From NCBI RefSeq assembly GCF_021531055.1, contig NZ_JADYTL010000006.1:1-64000 (forward strand): a DNA stretch of 64,000 nucleotides. The letters run 5' to 3'. The notes below the pieces were generated by a model. That model made no database searches and was not told where the DNA came from. It was given only the letters and a program-made list of their open reading frames with translations. Positions 27,588-55,136 of this stretch are shown here, one piece after another. The stretch's first letter is position 1. Each line of letters begins with the position of its first letter. Made by a program: the position numbers and the translations under genes. The DNA is from Collinsella tanakaei. GTDB lineage: Bacteria > Actinomycetota > Coriobacteriia > Coriobacteriales > Coriobacteriaceae.

Positions 27588-27616
27588 TTGACCGCGGACC
27601 CGCTGCGTGGTATACC
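27588..27616 (+). promoter_or_regulatory. Strong sigma70-type promoter of the leader RNA
   Basis: TTGACC (27588-27593) and TATACC (27611-27616) with a 17-base spacer. Transcription should begin near 27622. Confidence 0.7.
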
Positions 27617-27621
27617 ATCAT

Positions 27622-27724
27622 CAGTTTTCGCCTCCCCCGACACCGGTTGGGGGAATCAAGGTGCCCGATTCTGACCGCAGGTACGGCGCATAGCGCTATA
27701 AGGCAGGGTCGCGGCACCTTTTTG
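27622..27724 (+). ncRNA. Structured leader RNA with intrinsic terminator
   Basis: About 100 bases between a strong promoter and a terminator. Two adjacent hairpins, CCCCC/GGGGG (27634-27638, 27649-27653) and GAATC/GATTC (27653-27657, 27667-27671), carry complementary loop sequences CACC (27641-27644) and GGTG (27660-27663). The second loop also contains AAGGTGCC (27658-27665), which pairs perfectly with GGCACCTT (27713-27720) to make a terminator followed by TTTTT. The two pairings are mutually exclusive. This could be a riboswitch, an attenuator or a free small RNA. It does not contain the conserved SRP RNA core. Confidence 0.6.
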
Positions 27725-27768
27725 TTTATCGGACGCGCGGCGGCGCGACGCGACGACAGGAGGGACCC

Positions 27769-28374
27769 ATGGCAACGAACCTTTCGGCAGGCATGACGCG
27801 CGAGCAGGCGTTCGAGCTGCTCTGCGAGCACAACAAGGACCCGTTCCACATCGAGCACGGCGAGACCGTCGAGCAGACCATGCGCTACTTCGCCCGCGAG
27901 TTCGATCCCGAGAACGAGGAATTCTGGGGCATCGTCGGCCTGCTGCACGACCTCGATTGGGAGGAGCACTCGGACGACCCCGACAACCATACCGTCTACG
28001 CCGCGAAGGACATCGAGGCCGCCGGGGGCACGCCCGAGCTCATCCGCGCCATCCAGAGCCACACGAGCGACTGGAACACCTCGCTGCCCGCGCCGGAGCA
28101 CCAGATGGAGAAGATCCTGTTCGCCACCGAGGAGCTCACCGGACTCATCGGCGCCGCCGTGGTGATGCGCCCTTCCAAGAGCGTCATGGACTTCAACGTG
28201 AAATCGCTCAAGAAGAAGTTCAAGGACAAGCGCTTCGCCGCCGGCGTCTCGCGCGACGTGATCCGCTCCGGCGCCGAGAAACTCGGTTGGGAGCTCGACG
28301 AGCTGTTCGCCCGCACGATCGAGGCCATGCAGAGCTTCGCGCCCGACCGCGACACCTTCGGCAAGGACGCGTGA
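27769..28374 (+). CDS. HD-domain phosphohydrolase
   Basis: A 201-residue protein with the metal-dependent HD fold. The metal motif is LLHDLDWEEH near residue 63, with supporting histidines in DPFHIEHGET near 25 and SHTSDW near 99. HD hydrolases of this size cleave nucleotides or other phosphomonoesters or cyclic nucleotides; the substrate is unknown. GACAGGAGG precedes the ATG. It is downstream of the structured leader, whose terminator lies 45 bases before the start codon, so its expression is probably set by read-through. Confidence 0.82.
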   Translation: MATNLSAGMTREQAFELLCEHNKDPFHIEHGETVEQTMRYFAREFDPENEEFWGIVGLLHDLDWEEHSDDPDNHTVYAAKDIEAAGGTPELIRAIQSHTSDWNTSLPAPEHQMEKILFATEELTGLIGAAVVMRPSKSVMDFNVKSLKKKFKDKRFAAGVSRDVIRSGAEKLGWELDELFARTIEAMQSFAPDRDTFGKDA

Positions 28375-54254: not shown

Positions 54255-54983
54255 TTACGGTTCGATCACGACCTCGCGCACCGGTCCGCACAACAGCTGC
54301 TTGGCCTCGATCGTGGCACCAAGATAGCGCTCCACGAGCTCCGCCAGCTCATCGATGGCCTCGACGCACTGCTCGATCCGCTCCGGCTCCACGCACTCGA
54401 TGATCAGAAACGCGTTGCGCGAGTCATCGCGAAGCGCCGTGCGCACGCCGTCGCGCCAGTTCCAGCATCGGCACACCGCGCCCGCATCGTCCAGGTAGCA
54501 CAGCTCGCCGGGAAGCGTCGAATCCTCGCTCTCGTCGGAACCGAGCGGCAGGAAGGCGTCGCCGCCCTCCGTGACGGTCAGGCGCAGGTCGCCCTGGAAG
54601 GTGTCGATGTCCTCGCCGCCGACCGGCAGCGCGTACGTGAGCGAGATGGTGTTGTAGATGTCCACCGCGGGCGTGATGGTGCCCACCGGCTTGCCCTTGA
54701 GCACGCGCTTGAGCAGGTTCTCGATCGAGCAGCGCGCACCCTTCTTCGTCTTGAACCTGCGATACGCCTCGCGCCACGCCTTCACCGGCGCGTTCTCGGA
54801 GATCGTGTCGCTCGTCAGATGACGCTCGGCCATCATGTTGGCGCGGACGAGCAGGCGCTCGATCTCGGCCTTGTCCTCGTCGGACACCTCGTCGGCGGTC
54901 TTCATGCCGCGCGCGACGACGACGCCGATCGCGGCATCGGGGAACAGCTCCCAAAACGAATCCTCGGTCACGAACTTCTTCAT
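54255..54983 (-). CDS. Stand-alone B3/B4 domain protein
   Basis: A 242-residue protein that matches the B3/B4 editing domain of phenylalanyl-tRNA synthetase beta subunit: AYRRFKTKKGARCSIENLLKRVLKGKPVG, seen in parts as GARCSIENLL and PAVDIYNTISLTYALPVGG. Free-standing B3/B4 proteins may edit misacylated tRNA or act on other aminoacyl esters. GGAGGC precedes the ATG. A stable hairpin lies immediately upstream in its leader. Function here is unproven. Confidence 0.83.
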   Translation of the reverse strand: MKKFVTEDSFWELFPDAAIGVVVARGMKTADEVSDEDKAEIERLLVRANMMAERHLTSDTISENAPVKAWREAYRRFKTKKGARCSIENLLKRVLKGKPVGTITPAVDIYNTISLTYALPVGGEDIDTFQGDLRLTVTEGGDAFLPLGSDESEDSTLPGELCYLDDAGAVCRCWNWRDGVRTALRDDSRNAFLIIECVEPERIEQCVEAIDELAELVERYLGATIEAKQLLCGPVREVVIEP

Positions 54984-55003
54984 GTCGGTGCCTCCTTATG
55001 CGA

Positions 55004-55058
55004 AAGCGCCCACTGCCGGCCACCTTCCAAGTCCTACGGTGCCGGCGCGTGGGCGCTT
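55004..55058 (-). terminator. Hairpin between pckA and B3/4 gene
   Basis: AAGCGCCCAC (55004-55013) with GTGGGCGCTT (55049-55058), plus inner GCCGGC/GCCGGC. It lies 20 bases before the ribosome site of the B3/4 gene. It can be the pckA terminator or an attenuator for the downstream gene. Confidence 0.65.
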
Positions 55059-55136
55059 GCGCGTCGTCCGCATCCGGAGACGCGGACTCTATCTATCGGT
55101 ACCCTATCCTACCATCGGATAGGGCGGTCGCTCAAC

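Follow-up and report, generated by a model that had tools for sequence, protein, structure and literature searches.

What kind of RNA precedes an HD-domain hydrolase gene of Collinsella tanakaei, and how might it govern that gene? The window that we analyzed is a stretch of 64,000 nucleotides from contig NZ_JADYTL010000006.1, and a first-pass annotation had described the region at 27588-27724 as a leader RNA that chooses between a kissing loop and a terminator. That observation is sound apart from one wrong base-pairing. We consider it very probable that the leader is a riboswitch of the Gd4v type, in which the choice between a ligand-favored pseudoknot and a terminator governs the HD gene.

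Promoter, fold and distribution of the leader

As the first-pass annotation had proposed, a promoter-like sequence precedes an RNA of about 100 nucleotides. The -35 box, TTGACC (27588-27593, forward strand), and the -10 box, TATACC (27611-27616, forward strand), are separated by a 17-nt spacer and form the best box pair by sequence, with a score of 9/12. A strict promoter scan of the window, the rule of which demands a T at the sixth -10 position, returned nothing at 27588-27616. Among 15 other leaders, TTGACC with a 17-nt spacer and either TATACC or TACATT is found in two, and the best -35 match is poor in several; four leaders from genus g42 have TTGACG-18-TACAAT.

The whole leader RNA (27621-27726, forward strand) scores 101.7 bits with model R3, which was built from 12 HD leaders only (8 from the genus of the window species and 4 from genus g42), the window copy being one of them. 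Its fold has a free energy of -50.4 kcal/mol (z -4.6), and none of 200 shuffled sequences did as well. The fold contains both hairpins that had been reported. P1 (27633-27654, forward strand) has the stem UCCCCCGAC/GUUGGGGGA and the loop ACCG. P2 (27658-27723, forward strand) is a Rho-independent terminator with arms at 27658-27673 and 27702-27720 and five T at 27719-27723; its distance of 45 nt to the ATG at 27769 agrees with the earlier description. When 12 leaders were aligned, 97.1% of the cells in the common structure were paired, as compared with 94.4% in shuffled alignments, and none of 500 shuffles reached as high a value. In this alignment, P1 has changes on both sides in 3 of 8 pairs, with 99.0% of cells paired, and the lower stem of P2 has them in 2 of 11 pairs, with 93.9% of cells paired. 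An extra hairpin of five pairs, GGCGC/GCGCU (27685-27697, forward strand), sits on top of P2; 100% of its cells are paired in the 12 sequences, and its changes are one-sided only. A terminator scan of the window, restricted by rule to loops of 3-8, did not list the HD-leader terminator because the apical part is larger than this and interrupted. The T-run comprises at least five T in the 8 leaders from the genus and just three T in the 4 from genus g42.

A local 5' antiterminator, in which the 5' segment at 27629-27632 pairs with the terminator arm at 27660-27663, was also considered and is not supported. This helix is present in the minimum-energy fold of the unfinished transcript (to 27712), and the three pairs adjoining it are kept in all 12 leaders of the alignment, a result equalled by 325 of 500 shuffles. 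Across 16 leaders, such 5'-segment helices average 8.81, as against 8.79 with shuffled 5' segments, and 1000 of 2000 shuffles were as high.

Model R1, built from seven leaders, gave a strong match (96-124 bits) in 9 of the 43 genomes of the genus, the seven being drawn from among these nine. A search of 395 genomes of the order with R1 yielded five more leaders at 40-83 bits, all in genus g42 and all preceding the same HD gene; four g42 species carry an intact leader, and the weakest match is L158. The HD gene lies behind all 14 leaders found in the Coriobacteriales. Inspection by eye of the upstream regions of 30 HD homologues, 29 of them from the genus, found a leader in 8 and none in 22, indicating that the leader is patchy and the gene old. 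With R3, 296 genomes sampled evenly from the phylum gave four matches, all in the genus of the window species and including the window genome, and none beyond it. A loose sequence pattern was of little use as a census, with matches in 147 of 297 genomes and a reversed control that also matched widely; from this search, only matches that read as this RNA were used.

Loop-loop pseudoknot and a second leader

The P1 loop of the HD leader pairs with the apical loop of P2: ACC at 27642-27644 with GGU at 27680-27682 (both forward strand). The variable pair joins the base N of the P1 loop (CNCCG) to the base N' that follows AGG in the P2 loop. We compared this pair with that of a sister type of RNA, one example of which lies in the window itself at 55099-54998 (feature 54998-55099, reverse strand). 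This second leader is of the guanidine-IV type, has no D2 hairpin, and scores 93.3 bits with model R2, which was made from 14 sister-type sequences that include it. Its pseudoknot joins UCC at 55078-55076 to GGA at 55034-55032 (reverse strand), and it does not carry the extra hairpin, whereas the HD leader does. By regular expression, the apical part measures 17-25 nt in the HD-leader type versus 2-5 nt in the sister type. Behind the second leader lies the gene for a stand-alone B3/4-domain protein of 242 amino acids (54255-54983, reverse strand; Pfam B3_4, 88.1 bits against a cut-off of 29.3). The second leader has compensating changes in its P1 stem (CCGC/GCGG) and a short T-run.

Across the two types, the loop pair occurs as all four Watson-Crick combinations and is intact in 54 of the 55 RNAs listed. 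It is A-U in 17 of the 18 HD-type leaders listed (one row is a duplicate, and the eighteenth is L158), and U-A in 12, C-G in 12 and G-C in 13 of the 37 sister-type RNAs. Each pair type is common to one lineage, so that the independent changes are fewer than these counts, and the row for the base before AAG in the underlying regular-expression table contains a few misreads. Among the HD leaders alone the pair is invariant (A-U in 12/12), and the covariation of the pseudoknot thus rests on the sister type. An alignment of the 14 sister-type sequences, with the pseudoknot included in the structure, has 97.8% of cells paired and changes on both sides in 11 of 29 pairs, and 0/500 shuffles matched it. 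The compensatory loop changes that had been named as a check are accordingly seen for the P1/P2-apical pair, across the HD and sister types together, and not for the pair originally put forward.

In L158 (G291:C10:21894-22003), the AGG kissing partner is gone from the P2 loop and the P1 loop base is G; this leader is perhaps a decayed switch. The P2 loop also varies just ahead of the pseudoknot strand, reading GCAGG in 4 of 9 genus copies, that of the window (27677-27682) included, and GUAGG in the others. In a published Gd4v RNA a U58A change impaired guanidine binding, and the variable position may be the equivalent of U58.

Relation to guanidine-IV and Gd4v riboswitches

The gene neighborhoods of the sister RNA pointed to a class. 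Weaker R1 matches in the genus (33-38 bits) are the sister RNA upstream of a stand-alone B3/4-domain gene, and among 20 further sister-RNA regions 16 are followed by a B3/4 start as judged by eye, two by other ORFs, one by the contig end and one by an SMR exporter. In the two with other ORFs, L134 and L136, the ORF is by eye neither B3/4 nor a known exporter. The exporter, from an uncultured Enterorhabdus, scores 103.3 bits with the NCBIfam SugE model, below its cut-off of 126, and 75.6 bits with Pfam Multi_Drug_Res, above the cut-off. It was this sugE-like SMR exporter behind a sister RNA that led to the guanidine-IV riboswitch; a glutamine riboswitch and a T-box, both weighed from a reading of the loops, were dropped once the sugE leader appeared.

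The 18-nt loop found in the sister RNA of the Eggerthellaceae occurs in 89 stretches in a collection of 84,980 species. The genes behind them encode MATE proteins (34), B3/4 proteins (20), SMR proteins (17), PnuC-like proteins (7) and PNPOx proteins (2), 80 being assignable; these counts and those of the P1 loop take in all 89 stretches, and representatives were checked. The P1 loop carries a G in 87/89 loci, the partner C being fixed by the pattern, and in 74/80 with a stricter regular expression; the two loci without it, L222 and L225, look like chance matches. Two of the 20 B3/4 loci are closest to a Bacillota representative (L197). Raoultibacter timonensis is presumably a relative of the window species. 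Guanidine binding was shown for its emrE leader, and the exporters described for guanidine-IV are SugE, MATE and PnuC (PMC7736828). The guanidine-IV paper, in the sections consulted, makes no mention of a connection between B3/4 and guanidine. The second leader fits the guanidine-IV class.

Is the HD leader, then, also a guanidine-IV riboswitch in the strict sense, one that responds to free guanidine and activates the HD gene as part of a guanidine response? We regard this as improbable. The HD leader does share with guanidine-IV (GGAM-1 or mepA motif; PMC7736828) its architecture of two hairpins, loop-loop pseudoknot and terminator, the same genome carries a guanidine-IV-type leader, and R2 recognizes 8 HD leaders of the genus, albeit weakly (20.9-37.8 bits, the window copy at 20.9). 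It differs in having A-U at the kissing position and in its extra hairpin, a feature that guanidine-IV leaders of the sugE-linked subset are described as always lacking (PMC9788692). Nor is the sugE/MATE/PnuC context found behind it: the gene is the HD gene for all Coriobacteriales leaders found, sugE follows 0/18 of the HD-type leaders listed, as in the Gd4v motif, and its distant relatives mostly stand before Gd4v-type genes.

These distant relatives were found by running R3 on genomes that carry the guanidine-IV loop, 50 of the 54 first chosen (L220, L235, L238 and L240 were left out). Four strong matches were obtained, at 53.9-74.6 bits, in a Dethiosulfovibrio (74.6), a Bacillota MAG (63.4), another bacterium (60.7) and a Lachnospiraceae MAG (53.9); a fifth match, at 27.6 bits, is not credible. 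All four (L251-L254) keep A-U at the kissing position and have an apical hairpin by eye. Two precede genes for PRK07324 aminotransferases (515.6 and 539.9 bits, cut-off 476), one precedes a gene for another aminotransferase and one a MATE ORF (MatE, 28.9 bits, cut-off 24.9); GNAT genes were found behind none. The remaining aminotransferase is not PRK07324, and no cut-off was exceeded among the matches listed for it. In the Dethiosulfovibrio the PRK07324 gene is followed by a cyclodeaminase-like ORF, which is cut by the locus end and falls under all cut-offs. The next-best models for the PRK07324 proteins of L251 and L252 are GntC (guanitoxin) and VioD (capreomycidine), at 235.6-288.6 bits and under the cut-offs; this closeness hints at an arginine-derived cyclic guanidine chemistry.

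Gd4v is a guanidine-IV variant described as an orphan riboswitch candidate that is enriched in gut samples, with a ligand that was not found in a screen (PMC9788692). It bound guanidine just weakly, and the published work takes its ligand to be a guanidine-like amine (PMC9788692). Its reported gene contexts are PRK07324 aminotransferase, GNAT and MATE, with COG2423 enzymes in the PRK07324 operon, and position D1, invariably G in the subset of guanidine-IV that is linked to sugE, is never G in the PRK07324 Gd4v subset (PMC9788692). The HD leader resembles Gd4v in its two hairpins, its loop-loop pseudoknot, a 3' hairpin that is the terminator and an extra hairpin on top, and its R3 relatives stand before PRK07324 in two cases, another aminotransferase in one and MATE in one; PRK07324 and MATE, as well as COG2423 enzymes like the cyclodeaminase-like ORF, are named in the Gd4v paper, the third aminotransferase is not. 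It is unlike Gd4v in that the target here is an HD-domain hydrolase and in that the window copy reads GCAGG where most read GUAGG. Structure and kin thus place the HD leader with Gd4v as far as sequence comparison can tell. Where the first-pass annotation recognized no known class, the leader groups with a described motif (PMC9788692).

The PRK07324 enzyme itself shows no link to the HD leader in the genus: it is over the cut-off in 28 of 43 genomes, comprising 6 of the 9 that carry the leader and 22 of the 34 that lack it, and no Gd4v leader was found at eight loci holding PRK07324 genes of the genus. The term "HD domain" does not occur in the main text on Gd4v (PMC9788692), and in a collection of open-licence PubMed Central papers none was found that brings Collinsella together with guanidine and a riboswitch, or an HD domain together with a guanidine riboswitch. 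Judged from that main text, an HD target of a Gd4v-type leader may be new, and the paper's alignment of 395 may include HD leaders. A search of Rfam (4227 families) gave no score over a gathering threshold for the leaders and nothing relevant at permissive thresholds. As a control, seven loci with guanidine-IV or Gd4v-type leaders likewise gave no match at the gathering threshold, which suggests that the two classes are missing from Rfam 15; if so, annotation that relies on Rfam will miss both.

Proposed switching mechanism and the HD gene

Sequence comparison shows P1 and P2, the loop-loop pair, the terminator with the extra hairpin on top of it, and the kinship with leaders of PRK07324, another aminotransferase and MATE genes. 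For the direction of switching, the pocket and the steric mechanism we draw on the published class. In guanidine-IV, ligand favors the kissing loop and the full terminator stem is hindered, making an ON switch, and the hindrance is proposed to act through a shortened linker (PMC11611296; PMC12186494). For Gd4v, no full-length product was seen without ligand, and its authors proposed an ON switch (PMC9788692). By analogy, without ligand the long P2 stem of the HD leader would be completed, and transcription would end in the T-run (27719-27723), leaving the HD gene silent. With ligand, ACC of the P1 loop would dock on GGU of the P2 apical loop, and the conserved loop bases would make up the ligand pocket. 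Docking would keep the lowest P2 pairs open, allowing polymerase to read into the HD gene.

The choice originally proposed, pseudoknot against terminator, is therefore right in kind, being the published guanidine-IV mechanism, and wrong in its partner, which is the P2 apical loop and not the 5' arm of the terminator. With the kissing partner located in that apical loop, pseudoknot and terminator stem draw on different bases. The alternative, that CACC of the P1 loop and GGTG of the terminator arm make a direct antiterminator, we hold to be very unlikely. The two are complementary in the window copy, where they lie at 27641-27644 and 27660-27663, and 8 of the 12 leaders in the alignment have this complementarity; the other 4 read GGCG in place of GGTG, which breaks the pair. 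In those leaders the terminator partner changes with it, from U-A to C-G, indicating that the changing base follows the terminator and not the P1 loop. A GGTG-arm partner of the P1 loop is also absent in 7/17 RNAs of the HD type and in 36/37 sister RNAs; the segment that separates P1 from the apical loop of P2 contains an exact complement of the P1 loop in 10 of 17 HD-type and 1 of 37 sister-type leaders. An ordinary constitutive terminator that yields a small stand-alone RNA and has no ligand would be in keeping with the many HD homologues without a leader (22 of the 30 upstream regions), but there is scarcely any chance of it: conserved loops, a covarying pseudoknot and an occurrence ahead of genes that are unrelated to one another, here in the Coriobacteriales, in Bacillota and in a Dethiosulfovibrio, are riboswitch traits.

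Under the Gd4v-type reading, this orphan class gains a target of another kind, one conserved enzyme that stands alone behind the switch, and this narrows the search for the Gd4v ligand. We offer, tentatively, the idea that the HD hydrolase acts on the ligand or its product; paired with the PRK07324 enzyme, it would then identify the ligand. If this were true, an HD enzyme beside a PRK07324 enzyme that resembles GntC and VioD, and hence arginine-derived guanidines, would lead to the ligand of an orphan riboswitch. In addition, the guanidine-IV-type and Gd4v-type leaders, 27 kb apart in one genome, make a natural pair in which to look for the bases that change the ligand.

The HD-domain hydrolase itself (27769-28374, forward strand; 201 amino acids) scores 27.7 bits with the Pfam HD model, the cut-off being 22. 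A single-sequence search of solved structures found no relatives at E 10, a profile search gave three matches that are not credible (the best, a homeodomain protein, at E 0.056), and no relatives were found in viral contigs. A structure prediction from the single sequence had a mean pLDDT of 47, and no fold search was based on it. A homologue is present in 34 of 35 genomes of the genus. Just 19 of the 30 aligned homologues reach the Pfam HD model at E 0.001, and H30, H60, D61 and D141 are kept in all 30. The next gene after the HD gene, on the opposite strand, encodes a pfkB-type kinase.
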